The notes beneath the pieces were generated by a model, which saw only the letters and a list, made by a program, of their open reading frames with translations, did not search any database and was not told the DNA's origin. Made by a program: the position numbers and the translations under genes. A stretch of DNA of 64,000 nt from contig BCJU01000002.1 in NCBI GenBank assembly GCA_001600355.1, positions 1,860,001-1,924,000 on the forward strand, written 5' to 3'. Shown here in pieces: positions 2,989-61,454 of the stretch. This DNA is from Meira nashicola. Lineage: Eukaryota; Basidiomycota; Exobasidiomycetes; Exobasidiales; Brachybasidiaceae. Every line of letters begins with the position of its first letter. Position 1 is the stretch's first letter.

Positions 2989-4598
2989 TGCGCTTGGATT
3001 TTGTTTTCTATTAAGGAGTTGTTTGAAAAAAGCTTAAGTTTTGGTAGGAGTTTTGAATCGCTAGGAAACTGAATTCTGCGATGTCGTACGGATCACTTGA
3101 AGTTCGTCACAGGAAAGAAAACGGCCGTACCGATTTCGTTACTCTATACAATCTTGAAACAAATCTGAGTTACAGCACAGATTGTCACACGCCGTCGAGT
3201 CTACAAATCTTCGCAACGTGATTTTGTCCAAATCTGATCAAATGAAAGCCCTAGATGCAAATCGTACAAACACAAGTTTTGATTACCCTTTTCCCGTGTG
3301 TATATGTAGCAATCTGTCTTGCAAAGGAATCTAGAGCAGTCCGTCACGAGAGAGAGGAAGCTTGCTTTATACCTTGAAGTTGGATTGATACTTGAAGTCG
3401 TGATTGAAAGCTAAACAAAGGTTGCTTTTCGGTCGTAAGAAGCAAAGGCCCAAGACGAATCAATCCTCAAATCAGAAGATTAATCTTCAAAGATGAATGG
3501 GCTTTTGCGTTTCGATGAAAAAAAAAGAAAGAGAAAGAACAATGATGGTGGTCAAACGGTAAGAGATCCGTCCCTGGTGATGTATTATCGCGCGCGCGTG
3601 TCAGCGTCAAACCCGCCTTGTTTGCATTTCATCTGTGCAAGCACAACGCACCTCAAAGAAAAAAGAAGAGCGTACGCAGGGTGGGCCGGACTAATTGGTG
3701 CGTATGCGTGTGTGTGCACTAAAATCACTCACTCATAGTCTTAGAAGCACATTTGTTTTCCAAAGATACGGAGATGCATATTATATTAGGCGTCTTACAA
3801 TACATAACAAAAAGATTTTTTTCTTGTTACATATATTCAGCCTTTCTATCCGCCAATTCTCATTGCAAGGATGTTTCTCAATGCTGGTATACAAACGTCA
3901 CAAAATTTGATTTGTTTGAATTCGTTGGCTTTAAATAGGTAGCTCGGCATGTATGTATGAATGAATGGATCTTTGCAGTGCAAGGATTTGAGAGCCAGCC
4001 AAATGCTTGCTGTACACACACACAAAATCAACTTTTTTTTGGAAGCTTTTTTTCGATCCCCTGGCCTTTTTCCCCTTTCCTGTTTTGACGTGAATGAGAA
4101 AATGATTTCGCTGCGCAGCGCGCGCCGAGTGTGTAAACGCGTCAAAAGAGGGAAAATGCCCTCACTCAGCCGGCTGGCTGCTTTTTTCGCTTATGCCCTT
4201 TCGGATGGATAAACGCAACAGAGTTCCAATGGACGCGGTCATGCTTACCGTACGGCCAGCCATAAAAAGCCGTGGCAGAGTTCTCATTTCAGACGTCATA
4301 GACTTAGATCATTTATGCAGATGATAATTGTTTTGTCTTTGAGATCAATTTGTCAAAAAAATCTCCTTTGTTTCATGTATTTGTGTTGTATTAGTTAGCT
4401 AATTTTGGAGAACGATTTCTCCCGCCCCACCCTGCACGCTAGAATACCTAAACCCAAACACGAGCTAGAGCTCCAGGCTCTGTATCACGTACGCAGGGCG
4501 TGGACTGACTTACACACAGAAAGAAGTGTGCTTTCATCGCAATGTAATTGAAACACAATCTTCAATAACTTCCATCACATATACAAAATATAGTCATA
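2989..4598. other. long divergent intergenic region (PP1 promoter side)
   Basis: About 1.6 kb, the joint-longest gene-free stretch of the window. Short ORFs on both strands (for example 3493-3738, 3961-4212) are low-complexity and overlap each other, so I do not call them. It holds CG-alternating patches near 3590 and 4115 and T-rich tracts, compatible with regulatory sequence and long 5' UTRs for the PP1 gene and the gene starting at 4599. I see no tRNA or snRNA. Confidence 0.5.
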
Positions 4599-20050: not shown

Positions 20051-21057
20051 TAATGTATTTTGTATTTTTTTTCTTTGATAAAACATATTGTGAAATGTTC
20101 ATTGATTAAATTAATTTGTTTGTTTATGATAGGGTCTTTCTACATAAATTAAGTTTGGTCTTTGAGATTTTTCCGCAAATGGAAGTAGATTGTCTCGTAG
20201 AACATCTGATTGTGGCTGACTGATTATGTGTGATCTATCTGCACCCTATCTGGTAAACATTAATTAGTAAATATATACTTTCTTCAGCCTGACGCGTAGA
20301 TTAGTTTATATCTCGTGCCTGCATGCCTGTCTGTCCAAATGGGTTAAAACTCAATCCGGATTTTTTGTTGTCCAATTTTGTGTTAGAGGCATTCCCGCGA
20401 GTAGCGTCTTCGTTGTGCGCAGCCACAGAAAGTGTGTCAGAACGCGTAGCTTTTTTTTAACCTTTCGCATTCTTTCCATTTACATCTTCATTTCCGAGAC
20501 AATTTTGAAAGCCTAGACTAGAATAGTGTGGAAACGTCAACCATCATATTCAACTCAGATGCCAAAAACCGAAAGAGTGGGCCTATCTTTTAGATTATGC
20601 TGTCTCAAAAAGGTGGGGCATTTGAGACCCTTTAAAGAGATTGTAAGCTTTTGATCTTGCAGAAATGAACAGATATTTGTCATGTGTTTGCATAAGCCAT
20701 GCAGCATAACCAGTACGGACAATGCTTTTGATTGCGCTAGAGATTGTGGAGCGAAAAGGCTAGCCTAGCCTCTATGGGGAATGATCGGGATGAGGATCTT
20801 GTACGATATAGTGGACGAATTTGGTTAGTTGAGGCAACCGGGCCACCGAAAAGGTATGCTCAGCCTCTAAATGGGCCAGATGGACATAGGCCACCGATCA
20901 TAGTCCAATCGGATAGCATTCATTGATGATTTGTGATCGTCTTCGTTCTCAATCAATCGTCATCATCTTTTCCACCATCACCTTCGCCATTGTGGTCAAT
21001 TTTCCAAAATTACAGCATCAATAGAAGCCAAAGAACCTGGTCGATGCAAACGGAATT
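20051..21057. other. long upstream region of the giant secreted-protein gene
   Basis: About 1 kb. The only ORF of note (20744-20926) starts at TTG and has no recognisable content. I see no RNA gene. Promoter regions of this length are common upstream of regulated cell-surface genes, but no specific site could be assigned. Confidence 0.45.
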
Positions 21058-24000
21058 ATGAACGGGTAAGATCATTGGCCCGTTCGAGGCCAAAAACGTT
21101 TGCATCGATCAGCTTGATCATACTCATCCTCTTAGGTTTAACAATAGGATTTTCCATTTCAACAGCCATTGAAAAATCAAAATTGGTCAAGGAAAAACCT
21201 CAAAAAGAAACTTATGGAGATTTCTGTCCATACTTTCAGGTAGCATGTGAACGTGCTTGTGTAGAAAATGGTGGTATTTCAAATTCGTTTTGTTCAATGA
21301 CAGATCCAAAGTGCGCCTGTAAAGATGGAAAGGAAGAAACTATAAACTCAATCCTTCAAGTTGTTTCAATTTTACAGAGTACGGCAAATAATGGCACCGA
21401 CCAGGAAACTACAATCACGGTCACAGATTCCGCTGCTGATCAAGTTTCTACAAGTACAATTGTCAAAACTCTCACTGTCAGTGGAGATCGTCAAGTCTTA
21501 CCAACTAGTGCGGGAAATGTTTGGCAATCAGCAGGTGAAGGAGGAGCAACAGCGGAGAAACAGCTCTCTGGTAATGGGCAGAACACGCAGAGACAAGGAG
21601 CTTCAATTGGAGCGCAAGAAAACCTTCAATCATCAGATAGAGTCAAAACTGTTGTAGAACAGACCACCGTTCAAGGTCAAGTTCTGGTTCAGTCATTCAC
21701 GACAACTCTTACTGCACCAGAACAAATCCAAACAATAACCAATGTTCAAACTGTGCAAGGACAAGCAATTCCAACAACTATAATCTCTACCATTGTTGAA
21801 ACGGCAGCAGCCCAGCCTTCAATTGTCACAATGCAAGGAGAAGGAAGGATAAGTACATTTACCGAAGTAGTATCAGGTAATGAAATCACGAGGACGATTA
21901 CGAGCGATCCTGAAACCGTGACGGTAGCAGGACAAAATATCGTCAGCATCATTACAGAATCGGGGAAAGAGGTCACTCGTACAATCACTGCAGATCCTTC
22001 CACTATTACATTAGCAGGAAGCGAGATCGTCCAAACGATTTCAGCAGATCCTCTCACGGTGACGATTTCGGGGCAAGAAGAAATTTACACCATTACGGAT
22101 GAGATCACACGTACGATTTCTGCTCAACCTTCTACAGTGACGATACCAGGTCAAGATATTTTAAAGACTGTAGTAGAGCCTGGGGTAGAAGTAACACGAA
22201 CAATCACCGCAGATCCTTCTACAGTAACTTTACCTGGACAAGATATTTTGAAAACGTTAACGGTACCTGGACAAGATATCTTAAAGACAATAACGGAATC
22301 GGGGATCGAGATTACACAAACAATCTCTGGAGATCCTATTACAGTGACCGTCTCAGTAGAGGGAGCAATTCAAACTATTACCAACGAGCTCACGCGTACG
22401 ATTTCCGCTGATGCTAGTACAGTGACTGTACCTGGACAGGACATAATCAAAACTATAACAGAATCTGGAATCGAAATAACCCGAACGATTTCTGCAGATG
22501 CATCCACAGTGACTATACCTGGACAGGATATCATTAGAACAATAACGGAACAAGGAATTGAGATCACAAGGACAATCTCTGCAGATCCTATCACGGTAAC
22601 TATTCCTGGACAAAATATCTTGAAAACAATAACCGAATCAGGAATCGAAATCACACGAACAATCTCTGTGGATCCTTCTACGGTAACTATTCCTGGTCAA
22701 GACATCTTAAGAACAGTAACGGAATCGGGGATTGAGATCACGCGAACGATTTCTGTGGATCCTTCTACAGTGACCATTGCTGGACAAGACATCTTAAGAA
22801 CAGTAACGGAATCTGGAATTGAAATCACACAAACAATCACTGGAGATCCTGTAACCGTGACAGTTTCTGCAGATGGGTCAATTCAAACCATTACCAATGA
22901 GCTAACTCAAACAATTACTGCAGATGCTTCTACTGTGACTATACCTGGTCAAGAGATTCTGAAGACAATAACAGAATCAGGAATTGAGATCACACAAACA
23001 ATCACTGCAGAACCTTCTACGATTACTATCCCTGGTAAAGATATTCTAAAGACAATAACGGAATCAGGGATCGAGATCACACAAACAATCACTGGAGATC
23101 CTGTAACCGTCACGGTCTCTGCAGATGGGACAGTTCAAACCATTACCAATGATATTACACAAACAATCACTGCAGATCCTTCTACGGTAACAATCCCTGG
23201 TCAAGATATTCTGAAGACAATAACGGAATCGGGGACTGAAATTACACAGACAATCACCGCAGAACCTTCTACGATTACTATCCCTGGTCAAGATATTTTA
23301 AAAACGATAACAGAATCAGGGATCGAGATCACACAAACAATCACTGGAGATCCTGTAACTGTGACTGTTTCTGCAGAGGGTGTAATTCAAACCGTGACAA
23401 ATGAGCTTACACGTACAATTTCAGCAGATACATCTACTATCACTTTGAGTGAAGAAGCACAAATTCAGACGATCGTGGAGACAACAACTATTACTGGAAG
23501 TGATATTATCAGAACTGTAACAGCAGAAGCCCAGACTGTAACCCTCAGTGGAGCAGATGGAGAAGTTCAAATCATTACCGAGACCTTACCGGTGTCTTAT
23601 GTGACTGAAACTATTCACGGCAGTGATATAATTCAGACAGTATCCGCAGAAGCTTCTACCTTAACACAGACAATTTCGGGCAAGGAAGTTACATTGACAA
23701 TCACTGCAGAACCATCCACAATCACGATTAGCGGAGAATCTCTTCAAACGATTACTCAAGTGGAAAGCATTCCTGGTCCAACGATTACGCAGGCGATGCC
23801 AACGACAATTTTCTTGCCGGCTTCGACTATAGTACAAAGCGCAGAACCAACTTCGATCTTTGTGGAAAAGACTCTTACCGAATTTGCTACACTGCCTGGA
23901 GAGATTACAACCTTTACTCAAATTGCTGATCCTTCTTCGATCACTATTGATCGAACGTTGACAGAATATGCCACTCTCCCTATTTCGATCGAAACGCAAT

Positions 24001-27000
24001 ACGCACCTACTACCGTAAGCGAACAAGTTGTATCGACTTTGACTTTGGAAACAACTGCAGTTTCAATTCAAACAATTTCGCTCGATGGAAGCATTACTAC
24101 TGTATTCCAAACTCAAACTCTACCCGGGGAGGTAACCACAATAACTCAAATTGCTGATCCATCTTCGATTACCATTGATCGTTTTCTTCCAACGACCACC
24201 ACAGAGCAGGTTATCTCTACTTATACCTTGGAAACGACAGCAATCGCTACTCAGACGATCTTGCCTGACCCTGTCACAGTTCAGAACTTCGTGACTTTAA
24301 CGTCTTTACAGCCTTTCACTACAACGGAGACAGCCATATCGCAAGTGACACTCGATCCAACAACAATTGAAAAGTACATCACCGAGGTGTCGGTTCAACC
24401 TACAACTGCCACTGAGCAAATCGTTTCGACGCTTACATTGGAGACGACTGCTACTTTTACGCAGCCTGTTACCTTGGATCCAATCACGGTAACCCAAATT
24501 TCTGTTCAACCGACAACTGCTACCCAAGTAGTCACTCTTGATCCTAGCACAGTGGAGAATTATGTAACCCTGACTTCTTTGCAGCCCTTCACTGCAACAG
24601 AAACGGTTATATCTACACAACAAGTGACTCTTGATCCTTCTACAGTGGAAGAGATTGTCACACAGGTATCAATTCAACCAACAACTACTACCGAACAGGT
24701 TATTTCCACTTTGACAGTTGAGAGGACCGCTATTTCTACGCAGTCAATCACGGTTCTAGGTTCAGGAATCACGAATGTTCAATATGTTACTGAACCTACC
24801 ACGATTTTCAACACTCAATTTGCCACGATAACGACAACAGATGTACAGTTATCGACTTTGCCAGTCGAAACCTTGACAAGTTTGATCACAAATCTACAAA
24901 CAGAGACCCAAGTACAAACCTCGCTAGTACCCACCACGGTATTTGGAACGGTTACGAGTACACAATTGTCGACTTTACCTGCTGAAACATTGACAAGTTT
25001 GATCACAAATTTACAGACAGAGACTCAATTTGAGACTTCAATAGTGCCTACCACAGTTTTTGGAACGGTTACGAGCACACAGTTGTCGACCTTACCTGCT
25101 GAAACTTTGACAAGTTTAATCACAAACTTTCAAACAGAGACCCAAGTACAAACCTCGCTAGTCCCTACCACGGTATTTGGAACGGTTACGAGTACAGAGT
25201 TGTCGACTTTGCCGGCCGAAACACTGACAAGTTTGGTCACAAACTTACAAACAAGAACTCAGACTCAGACGCAAATTGAAACCTCCATCGTCCCGACAAC
25301 TGTTTATGGTACAGTCACTTCTGTCCAAACATCAACCTTACCGGTACAAACAGTTACGAGCTTGATTACGAATTTACAGACCCAGACCCAAGTGGAGACT
25401 TCCATTGTACCAACTACCGTCTTTAACACCCAATATCAAACTCTGACAACTGTAGATGTACAAAGGACCACTTTACCGGCAGAAACATTGACCAGCTTGA
25501 TCACAAATTTGCAAACACAGACCCAAATTCAAACATCACTTGTTCCGACCACAATTTACGGTACAGTCACTTCTGTACAGACATCAACTTTACCGGCACA
25601 GACAATTACAAGTTTGATTACAAATTTACAGACCCAGACCCAAACCCAAGTCGAGACTTCCATTGTCCCAACGACAGTCTTCAATACACAATATCAAACA
25701 CTAACAACTACAGATGTTGAAACATCAACTTTACCGGCACAAACACTTACGAGTTTGATTACAAATTTGCAGACTCAAACTCAAGTTGAGACTTCCCTCG
25801 TTCCTACCACAATCTATGGTACAGTCACTTCTGTTCAAACGTCAACTTTACCGGCGCAAACAGTCACAAGTTTGATCACAAACTTACAGACTCAAACTGA
25901 TGTTGAAACTTCCATTGTTCCAACGACAGTCTTTAATACACAGTATCAAACTTTAACAACTACAGATGTAGAAAGAACTACATTGCCAGCTGAAACTTTG
26001 ACCAGCTTAATCACCAATTTACAGACCCAAATTCAGACCTCGTTTGTACCAACAACGGTTTATGGAACAACGACAAGTGTTCAAACATCAACTTTACCGG
26101 CAGAAACGCTTACAAGTCTCGTGACAAACTTGCAGACCCAAACACAAATTCAAACTTCCTTTGTTCCAACAACAGTTTATGGCACAGTTACATCGACATT
26201 ACCGGCCGTTACTCTAACGAGTCTAATCACGAGCGTACAAGTTCAAACATCTTATGTTCCAACAACGAGTTACAGTACGGTGCTTAGTGTTCAAACGTCA
26301 ACCTTGCCAGCAGAAACAATTACCAGCGTATCAACTCAATTACAGACTTTGACCGATATTAGTACGCAAATTCAAACTACTCTTATCCCAACTTCATTCT
26401 TTTATACAGTAACAAATACACTTTCGCAAACTCAAACGCTTCCAGCAAGCACCTTGACGAGTATTTCTACTGTTTTAACAACTTCTACCGACTTTATGAC
26501 GCAAACAACGTTTATTCCGACTTCTTTCTTCTATACGGTAACGGCTACAAATACTCAAACTAGCTTGATTACATCGGTGGTGACATCTACTCCTCCTGCA
26601 GTGACAAGTTCGACGACAATAACATTACCGGCAAGCACAATTGTTAGTACATCCATACTTCCAGCTTCAACGATTACGTCTATACCTGATCCGAGTACAA
26701 TAATCTCTACAGTAGTGAGCACGTACACAACCGCCCTTCCCGCTTCAACAATTACATCCGTACCTGCTCCTAGTACGATTACTGCTACCGTAACAAGTAC
26801 AAGTGTTTCGATTTCTGTTCCGCCCGTTCAAACTGTTACAACACAATTACCTGCAAGTACATTGATCTCTAGTGTTACAAGTACGGTTACCTCAATCGTT
26901 CCACCCGTGACAATCACATCTATACCGCCGGCCAGTACGCAAACTGTTACGAATACAATTACTTCAATACCGGAAGCTGTGACATCAACTCTTACGAGCA

Positions 27001-28298
27001 CTATTACATCTATTCCTGCGGCTATTACTAGTACGATAACAAGTGTATCAACTTCTATCATCCCGGCAGTGACTAGTACACTTACGAGTATATCCACTTC
27101 TACACTTCCTGCTGTTACTTCAACTCTCACAAGCGTATCAACTTCGATCATTCCGGCAATTACAAGTACAATCACTAGCGTTTCTACTACCACCCTTCCT
27201 GCGGTTACAAGTACTCAAGTTACAGTAAGTACTGTTGTGTCTACAAGTTTGGTTCCTACCACTTCGACTGTTTCGGTAACTTTACCACAAGCGACACAGA
27301 CAGTTACTTTGCCACAAGCAACTGCCACTACTACTTTAACTTCTTCTGTCACCTTACCTCAAGCTACATCAACGGTATCGTTAACTTTGCCTCCAGTAAC
27401 TTCTACTGTGACTACGACAGCTTCTGTAACTTTGTCTCAAGTCACTTCAACGGTTTCAGTCACTTTACCTCAGGCGACTGCAACAGTGTCTGTAACTCTT
27501 CAACAAGCTACAAGTACAGCCACTTCAACAGTTTCGGTCACTTTACCTCAAGCGACAAGTACAACAACTTCTACTGTTTCAGTCACTTTACCGCAAGCGA
27601 CAAGTACAACAACTTCTACCGTTTCAGTCACTTTACCGCAAGCAACAACGACAGCAACAGCAACGGCAACGGCAACGGTGTCTGTAACTCTCCCGCAAGC
27701 TACAAGTACAACCACTTCCACGGTTTCAGTCACTTTACCACAAGCAACTAGTACAACAACTTCTACAGTTTCAGTAACCTTACCACAAGCAACGGCCACG
27801 GTTTCCGTCACTTCGACCAGTAGTGTCACTTTACCTGCTGTCACTAGTACAAACACTGTGACATCTGTACAAGTTTCCACTTCTACTTCCACTCTTTTAC
27901 AAACAATCATTCAATCTACAACTCTTACACAAACAGTGGTACAAGCAACCACTCTTACTCAAACAGTCACCCAACCAACAACTCTCACTCAAACAGTCAC
28001 CCAACCAACAACTCTCACTCAAACAGTNNNNNNNNNNNNNNNNNNNNNNNNNNNNNNNNNNNNNNNNNNNNNNNNNNNNNNNNNNNNNNNNNNNNNNNNN
28101 NNNNNNNNNNNNNNNNNNNNNNNNNNNNNNNNNNNNNNNNNNNNNNNNNNNNNNNNNCAACCAACAACTCTCACTCAAACAGTCACCCAACCAACAACTT
28201 TGACACAAACAATCACACAAGCTACTACAGTCACGGCCACAGTCACACAAGTTACTACAGTCACGGCTACAGTATCCGCCACAAAGTTGGTAAGATAG
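21058..28298 (+). CDS. giant Ser/Thr-rich secreted repeat protein (adhesin-like), interrupted by an assembly gap
   Basis: About 2,400 residues. The long frame has no ATG upstream; the best start is ATG at 21058 with an 8-nt first exon (21058-21065), a 47-nt intron with a perfect GTAAG donor and a CAG acceptor at 21110-21112, then exon 2. The spliced product begins MNGLIILILLGLTIGFSISTA, an excellent signal peptide. A six-Cys module follows (Cys about 41, 48, 52, 63, 70, 72). The rest is Thr/Ser/Gln/Val-rich tandem repeats in four blocks, annotated separately. The C-terminus (ATVSATKLVR) has no hydrophobic tail, so no GPI anchor is visible. A GTAAG at 28290 just before the stop might be a donor to another exon. 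It is probably a heavily O-glycosylated wall or extracellular protein. 130 Ns at 28028-28157 hide part of the last block. Confidence 0.82.
21870..23470 (+). repeat. tandem repeat block A, 29-residue units
   Basis: Unit about 87 bp. Consensus reads PGQDILKTITESGIEIT followed by QTITADPSTVTI, alternating with a shorter variant containing VTVSADG.IQTITNEL. Units are near-identical in protein but carry many synonymous changes, so selection on the protein rather than recent duplication explains the similarity. Confidence 0.9.
24835..26390 (+). repeat. tandem repeat block B, about 39-residue units
   Basis: Units contain LPAETLTSLITNLQTQTQ, then a VPTTVFGTVTS or VPTTVFNTQYQTLTT version. Two alternating subtypes give a higher-order pattern. 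DNA identity between some neighbours is high (for example around 24,890 and 25,010), indicating more recent duplication than block A. Confidence 0.88.
27270..27815 (+). repeat. tandem repeat block C, about 15-residue units
   Basis: Units read SVTLPQATSTTTSTV with variable Thr/Ala spacers, including a short simple ACGGCA-type run near 27,660. Ser/Thr-dense and probably O-glycosylated. Confidence 0.88.
27940..28210 (+). repeat. tandem repeat block D, 30-bp perfect units, with gap
   Basis: Ten-residue unit VTQPTTLTQT. Units flanking the gap are identical at DNA level, unlike the older blocks, so this is the youngest and most length-variable array of the gene. Confidence 0.9.
28028..28157. other. 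assembly gap (130 N)
   Basis: Run of N inside repeat block D. Continuing the 30-bp unit exactly across it would need 4 plus a multiple of 30 bases (124 or 154), so 130 is an estimate; it happens to keep the reading frame. Confidence 0.99.
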
Positions 28299-60510: not shown

Positions 60511-61454
60511 TTATCTCAGCGAGCTTGCAACACTTGCCTTTGCTTTACTCTCTGCTCGCTTCTCGTCCCTCTGTTGCCTTCTAATCTCTTCTCCTTTTTT
60601 TACTGTTTCCCGTAATTGTTCTTCTGTCAAGCCGGGCTCTTCAAATCGTTCATATTCATCCTTTGCGAGATCCGCTTCGTATGCTTCTCCAATTGTTTGA
60701 AAGAGTTGATCGAGATTATCTAGAGCATCTCGTAAAGCTGTCAAGCTTGACTTTTGATCTGTAAGAAAGGAAAGGATGGCCAATGTTCGTTAGCACATTA
60801 TTAAAAATGAGCAAAATATCAAATGAAATTGATTTTCAGTAGGAACAATTGGTTGTGTATTTCGTTTAATTCGATCATTTTTTTTTTTGATCTGATAAAT
60901 CCCTTAAAACGATATCATCATTGAGATGTAGTAATCAAAGCCCAAAACTTTCAACTCACCATACATTTGAATTCGTAAATGAATCTTTGGCTCACTTGGA
61001 TGGGGATTACTGTATCCGCAAAATTCCACAGAAGGGCTATATTAGAGAGAAGGAAAACATGTCAGCATCCCTGTTTCTTTTTCATAGAATCTTGACAATC
61101 TCCAATTTCCCTCATAAACGAAGAATTCCTGTTTTTCTATTGTACCACACCGCTACTGGCTGTCCTTTTGCAAAAGGACTGTTTTCGCTCTGAATAGATA
61201 ATTTTTGATTATAATCCTCGGGAAATATGTTTTGTGTATTTTACTCACTTTTTCATCAACATATATCTCAATGCATTTCCCAATGTATGATCTTCGTTGT
61301 GTAAACAATAAGTTGCTGCTGATAGATCGGATTCGAAACCTTTTAAAATTTCAATTTTGTCATTAATTTCCAATGCAACTTCATCATCTACTTCCATTCC
61401 TACATTTTGATCATCAATTTCAAGTTGTGAAGTTGGCAACTGTACTTCTGCCAT
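60511..61454 (-). CDS. RPC19: RNA polymerase I and III shared subunit AC19
   Basis: Three exons on the minus strand: 61454-61249, 61036-60960 and 60758-60511, encoding 176 residues. Donors are GTGAGT twice; acceptors ATATAG and TTACAG; phases fit (2, then 1). The product reads [39 protein letters not shown], then [25 protein letters not shown], all landmarks of AC19/POLR1D, the alpha-like partner of AC40. The ATG at 61454 is chosen because the frame further upstream has only a TTG. A charged tail of about 45 residues ([21 protein letters not shown]) extends past the usual AC19 end. Introns of 212 and 201 nt are much longer than others here; intron 2 hosts a snoRNA. Divergent from COQ10, with 241 bases between starts. 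Confidence 0.95.
60831..60926 (-). ncRNA. intron-encoded box C/D snoRNA guiding two 18S rRNA methylations
   Basis: Lies inside RPC19 intron 2 (60759-60959), same strand. Box C ATGATGA is at 60921-60915, D' CAGA at 60894-60891, C' ATGATCG (degenerate) at 60878-60872 and D CTGA at 60839-60836. The 12 nt upstream of D complement 18S AGGAACAATTGG; the 12 nt upstream of D' complement 18S TAAATCCCTTAA, which lies just 5' of it. The fifth nucleotide before D pairs with the adenosine equal to human A590/yeast A541 (snR41, SNORD62 target); that before D' pairs with human A576 (SNORD93 target). A possible external stem is TTGATT (60938-60933) with AATCAA (60834-60829). The intron branch point (CTAAC) is about 40 nt downstream. 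Ends are approximate. Confidence 0.87.
61162..61179. other. 18-bp perfect palindrome inside RPC19 intron 1
   Basis: GTCCTTTTGCAAAAGGAC, self-complementary over its whole length, giving a 7-bp hairpin with a TGCA loop in RNA. It sits in the middle of the 212-nt intron 1 of RPC19. An ANANNA (ATAGAA) and an ACA occur downstream on the minus strand, but a full H/ACA fold could not be drawn. Confidence 0.6.

Follow-up and report, generated by a model that had tools for sequence, protein, structure and literature searches.

A candidate box C/D snoRNA in an RPC19 intron of Meira nashicola, with a guide for the 18S rRNA A541 (human A590) equivalent and a likely second guide for the human A576 equivalent

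Intron 2 of the RPC19 gene of Meira nashicola very probably encodes a box C/D snoRNA, which from its boxes and complementarities is a likely counterpart of snR41-I/U62. There is a strong case for a guide to the A541/A590 equivalent of 18S rRNA, and a second guide located at the D' box likely addresses the A576 equivalent. The gene lies in a window (the whole stretch of DNA analysed, 64,000 nt) that corresponds to bases 1860001-1924000 of contig C2, in an assembly of 17.88 Mb and 20 contigs. Its gene contents and the RPC19 comparisons are judged to fit a fungus. The features of the locus are as follows:

61454-60511, minus: host gene RPC19 (RPAC2, AC19), 176 aa, three exons
61454-61249, 61036-60960, 60758-60511, minus: RPC19 exons, from the splice model
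61248-61037, minus: RPC19 intron 1, 212 nt
60959-60759, minus: RPC19 intron 2 (snoRNA host), 201 nt
60938-60933, minus: possible external stem, 5' arm TTGATT (predicted fold)
60926-60831, minus: candidate box C/D snoRNA, approximate extent from boxes and guides, mature ends inferred
60921-60915, minus: box C ATGATGA, exact RUGAUGA match
60907-60896, minus: guide 1, TTAAGGGATTTA, 12 nt
60894-60891, minus: D'-like box CAGA, non-canonical (not CTGA)
60878-60872, minus: C'-like box ATGATCG, 5 of 7 positions matching RUGAUGA
60852-60841, minus: guide 2, CCAATTGTTCCT, 12 nt
60839-60836, minus: box D CTGA, canonical
60834-60829, minus: possible external stem, 3' arm AATCAA (predicted fold)
60793-60789, minus: branch-like CTAAC, within the 77 nt after box D in intron 2

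The product of RPC19 is a subunit common to RNA polymerases I and III. The predicted protein contained the Pfam RNA_pol_L_2 domain (E 2.7e-29 in the domain search), and its closest solved structures were RPAC2 chains of RNA polymerases I/III (best 7aoc_K, E 8.5e-27). Its open frame results from splicing at GTGAGT...TAG and GTGAGT...CAG. The distance from the start of intron 2 to box C is 38 nt, and 77 nt follow box D. The sequence-only reading had described this intron as several times longer than the others, which did not hold in the comparison within RPC19 (201 nt versus 212 nt for intron 1).

Intron 1 was also checked for a further snoRNA, and no C...D pair was found in its 212 nt; it possessed a single 6-of-7 C-like box and a single CTGA, both around the branch site. 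Pocket pairing of intron 1 to 18S and to the LSU part did not exceed 7 bp, with no H/ACA evidence found, and its fold z-scores relative to shuffles were -0.91 and 0.90. An Rfam GlsR10 match (14.1 bits, E 9) that runs over the junction of intron 1 with exon 2 was treated as noise. A perfect palindrome of 18 nt (GTCCTTTTGCAAAAGGAC) is located in the same intron, at 61162-61179.

On the minus strand of intron 2, the boxes C, D', C' and D and the two 12-nt guides were recovered in the order that the sequence-only reading had claimed. As in box C/D snoRNAs, an exact box C lies near the 5' end and a CTGA box D near the 3' end. Both guides end one base ahead of their respective box (D' and D), and with 12 bp each they fall within the 10-21 bp of such guides and place the fifth base upstream of D or D' on the target. 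Concerning the structure, no terminal stem abutting box C was present in the predicted fold; the candidate for an external closing stem is a 6-bp pairing alone, and the whole-fold z-score (0.49) was no better than shuffles.

A 29-base pattern of the 18S rRNA, with as many as two mismatches allowed, gave no match in the assembly. The rDNA may thus be missing from the assembly or differ there. Pairing was evaluated on five contaminating eukaryotic stretches (L021-L025) located in contigs of prokaryote genomes and found by a scan for the 18S region. Four of the five had an Rfam eukaryotic SSU match, L025 being complete (1800 nt), while L022 was recognized by pattern alone; by eye, L021, L024 and L025 were fungal-like and L022 and L023 animal-like. 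The five are filed as bacterial (Blastococcus sp. CPCC 205250, Burkholderiales MAG REEB372, Rhodospirillales MAG Glo_3, Brenneria sp. 4F2 and Planomonospora parontospora JCM 3093), their eukaryotic 18S being contamination.

Guide 2 paired with the 18S segment AGGAACAATTGG at 12 of 12 positions in L021, L024 and L025, and at 10 of 12 in L022 and L023. Guide 1 formed 11 of 12 pairs with L021, L024 and L025 (one mismatch), and 11 Watson-Crick pairs plus one G-U with L022 and L023; its target TAAATCCCTTAA was found with 12 of 12 pairs in the Talaromyces marneffei PCR primer RRF1, placed in 18S through its likeness to L025. The claim of two perfect guides is borne out for guide 2 with the three fungal-like references, and for guide 1 with the Talaromyces primer but not with these references. 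Basidiomycota are presumed here to carry the 18S variant found in the primer. An excerpt of PMC4757548 gives RRF1 as containing TAAATCCCTTAACGAGGAACA. The presence of TAAATCCCTTAACGAGGAACAATTGG in the 18S of this fungus itself would support the guides, and mismatches near the target adenosines would weaken them.

According to the D+5 rule, guide 2 addresses the fourth base of AGGAACAATTGG, at position 541 of L025, which is taken to be the yeast number of the known methylation site A541 (human A590). According to the D'+5 rule, guide 1 addresses the fourth base of TAAATCCCTTAA, which is the fourth of TAAATACCTTAA in L025 (position 527) and, by arithmetic on the 14-nt distance to A590, the human A576 equivalent. 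The two adenosines named by the sequence-only reading were thereby recovered, 14 nt apart, as was the neighbouring position of the two targeted rRNA segments, which are separated by 2 nt. With the composite target, the duplex energies were -19.4 kcal/mol for guide 2 (best of 1000 shuffled guides: -16.6) and -17.2 kcal/mol for guide 1 (best of 1000 shuffled guides: -15.1), the guide 1 duplex including four extra pairs past a bulge. With the unaltered L025, the energy of guide 1 was -11.3 kcal/mol.

Guides for the A541-equivalent site are known in N. crassa, S. pombe, S. cerevisiae, A. thaliana and human (PMC2780460), which agrees with the earlier attribution of A590/A541 to snR41 and U62. The attribution of A576 to SNORD93 is likewise found in a section of PMC9941101, where human Am576 is assigned to this snoRNA and is partial in the cell lines presented there (MethScore 0.57 in HEK293T and 0.19 in SH-SY5Y). 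Neurospora crassa CD13, an 84-nt intronic snoRNA with its guide at D and 18S-Am538 as target (PMC2780460 Table 1), resembles the intron 2 RNA as an intronic C/D RNA with the A541-equivalent guide adjoining box D, and its homologues are snR41-I, snR41, snR41Y and U62A/B (PMC2780460). It differs in that a single target is listed for it, with no entry for the A527 equivalent. The A541 guide core ACCAATTGTTCC of the intron 2 RNA is shared by Saccharomyces cerevisiae snR41 (Rfam RF01218), whose Rfam alignment has this guide within the first half of the molecule. Human SNORD62 (U62; U62A/B) targets the same adenosine equivalent as guide 2, at a site where the animal-like 18S (L022, L023) shows two base differences, and SNORD93 (HBII-336) guides 18S A576, the position addressed by guide 1. 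A576 and A590 are assigned to two separate snoRNAs in human, whereas here both guide sequences are found in one predicted RNA. From its sequence, this RNA would work like snR41-I and CD13.

The alternative that survives best, although unlikely, is a snoRNA in which the D guide for the A541 equivalent works alone and the guide 1 match is a remnant or a product of chance. It is favoured by the non-canonical D' box (CAGA) and by Neurospora, for which Table 1 of PMC2780460 lists no guide for Am524 (the A527 equivalent) and a single target for CD13. Moreover, among the 506 CAGA sites of the window, guide 1 was the sole 12-mer when L025 was given the C variant, and the reversed 18S also yielded one 12-mer at such a site, so that guide 1 by itself is not beyond chance at the window level. 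Against a single guide, guide 1 is 12 nt long, has the same spacing to D' as guide 2 to D, lies between an exact box C and D', and addresses a position known to be methylated in human. In yeast, moreover, most C'/D' motifs depart from the canonical form, which is reported in just 2 of 43 snoRNAs in a passage of PMC8413462. The guide at D' for the A576 equivalent is regarded as likely and not as firm, because its D' box is degenerate and the matching 18S variant was taken from another fungus.

At the assembly level, ACCAATTGTTCCT followed by CTGA within four bases occurred in one place, RPC19 intron 2. The shorter guide 2 core CAATTGTTCC followed by NTGA occurred in eight distinct places, and in two of them an exact box C precedes the core by no more than 100 nt: RPC19 intron 2 (at -70) and L049 (at -50), the latter with a D-like box TTGA four bases past the core. 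At another of the loci, L050, the core stands one base ahead of CTGA, one base nearer than in RPC19 intron 2, and a 6-of-7 C-like box is found at -96, making it another, weak candidate for an A541 guide. The shorter guide 1 core followed by NTGA was found in two places, as many as for the backward control pattern, and neither had a box C of at least 6 of 7 positions within 100 nt. L004, the second place where guide 1 is accompanied by a D-like box, resembles coding sequence by eye. It is highly improbable that intron 2 holds a decayed or unexpressed copy while another locus provides the A541 guide: D' and C' are degenerate, no canonical terminal stem was predicted and L050 offers a weak alternative source, yet boxes C and D are intact, as are the two guides, the full guide 2 with CTGA is unique in the assembly, and L050, with its box one base nearer, would have its target displaced by one base.

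Within the window, 381 CTGA sites were found, and just the one in RPC19 intron 2 was preceded by a 12-mer perfectly complementary to the L025 18S. The next best site had one 11-mer, and the longest match to the reversed 18S was 10. Among the 10 exact C...D pairs of the window, the intron 2 pair scored best, with a joint guide score of 24 (12+12) when the target carried the one-base C variant. The joint score was 19 with the unaltered L025 (12 plus a 7-base A run, guide 1 not being involved) and 16 with the reversed 18S. A chance resemblance in an AT-rich intron is scarcely credible: 5 of 300 shuffles of L025 gave a D guide of at least 12 (12 or 13) somewhere in the window and 9 reached a joint score of at least 19 (22, 22, 20, 20 and five of 19), but none reached 24, and the two guides address known methylation sites at a distance of 14 nt from each other, which is further evidence outside the shuffle counts.

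Two other places in the window may be mentioned. At 3223-3237 (+), an 18S-complementary 11-mer directly precedes CTGA, but no C-like box lies among the 120 nt before it, and it is probably a chance match. The open frame at 20937-28298 (+) is very long, repetitive and rich in Thr and Ser; it contains a run of X (masked or unknown bases) and resembles a cell-surface protein.

The guide RNA is invisible to an open-frame view, as the sequence-only reading had said, and it also lies under the Rfam cut-offs, with no match at gathering thresholds in the whole window. With E up to 10, two Rfam matches were obtained in the searched stretch, the better being snR41 (22.3 bits, E 0.39), whose alignment in RPC19 intron 2 spans guide 2 and box D; its gathering cut-off is 50 bits. 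Assembly-wide, the snR41 model gave six matches with E up to 10, RPC19 intron 2 being second after a match of 22.4 bits elsewhere, and comparable scores arose in 9 of 14 control genomes. The snR41 model neither proves nor excludes the candidate, because of the low score, the second rank and the similar scores in control genomes. Four of the other snR41 matches (L026, L028, L029 and L030) were rejected, as each was missing both snR41 guide cores. The SNORD62 model (Rfam RF00153) listed 11 places in the assembly with E up to 10, from 55 scored out of 2777 first-look candidates, and none was at RPC19 intron 2 or above the cut-off; the best of them elsewhere (L035, L036) were missing the guide core. 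A SNORD93 model presumably exists in Rfam, and it was absent from the two matches in the searched stretch. The covariance-model check that had been proposed supported the candidate through the overlap of snR41 with guide 2 and box D, but not through its score (22.3 versus 50 bits), nor through SNORD62 or SNORD93. The intron 2 RNA was not placed in the Rfam snR41 family, because its score is under the gathering cut-off and it lacks the G1126 second guide.

In viral contigs, ACCAATTGTTCC-N-ACTGA was found at 16 loci, which are attributed to chance because an exact box C was absent from the preceding 100 nt at all 16. These contigs contained neither the two guide cores together nor the 18S stretch, and the five stretches matching the pattern for RPC19 relatives included no true relative.

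The second target of snR41 in yeast is taken to be Gm1126. The core of the corresponding guide, GTTTCAGCC, was not present in RPC19 intron 2, and a pattern search retrieved the G1126 guide at two places of the assembly (L033 and L032). The first is by its sequence a clear, separate C/D snoRNA, which also corresponds to another of the six snR41 matches (L031):

G000:C4:907582-907680 (L033:1421-1519 = L034:4083-4181): separate G1126 box C/D snoRNA, with its guide at G000:C4:907662-907678

It possessed an exact box C at -76, a box D and an Afu_455 match of 37.5 bits (E 0.0014), under the cut-off of 48. The second place (L032) was rejected, as its C-like boxes, 38-41 nt upstream, matched at just 6 of 7 positions and the sequence appeared by eye to consist of coding repeats. 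No match to snR70 or snR51 was detected with E up to 1 in the 9 kb around the G1126 snoRNA. An intronic snR41-snR70-snR51 cluster is described across fungi, Basidiomycota included, in a section of PMC3596301, and PMC2780460 gives CD9, CD17 and CD6 as Neurospora cluster III. As CD9 is a member of cluster III, the snR41 of the fungal cluster is likely the G1126 half. The homologues of CD9 (Gm1122) are snR41-II and snR41 (PMC2780460); yeast snR41 is thus also listed for Neurospora Gm1122, and here that guide sits at another locus. The predicted A541 and G1126 guides are on separate snoRNAs, repeating the split layout of Neurospora CD13/CD9.

We infer expression, processing, snoRNP assembly and methylation as follows. 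RPC19 intron 2 would be spliced and debranched, then trimmed by exonucleases to the snoRNP core, in which fibrillarin would use the guide by box D to 2'-O-methylate the A541 equivalent (human A590) of 18S and, with less certainty, the guide by the degenerate D' box to methylate the A527 equivalent (human A576). The two pairings would probably be used one after another, since the rRNA segments are 2 nt apart. It is plausible that the RPC19 host couples polymerase supply and rRNA transcription to rRNA modification. Intronic locations are frequent in Neurospora, with 45 of 55 C/D genes according to a section of PMC2780460, and ribosome-related hosts of fungal snoRNAs in an excerpt of PMC8476143 include RPL7 (snR59) and NOG2 (snR191).

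This type of snoRNA is well known, and the novelty lies in the pairing of targets in a fungal intron; neither a fungal A576-equivalent guide nor an A576 and A541 pairing in one RNA was found in a limited literature search. Chances are about even that the RNA is a fungal dual-guide snoRNA that serves the A527 equivalent (human Am576) besides the conserved A541 site. It would then be a further case of guide modules regrouped between fungal snoRNAs, comparable to the double or split guides and recombined halves of CD5 and U24 (PMC2780460). Should guide 1 work, it would make 18S methylation at the human A576 position testable in a fungus. If the dual guide is true, A576 methylation would extend beyond animals, and the A541 guide would act as a mobile module, combined with G1126 in yeast, with no listed partner in Neurospora and with A527 here.
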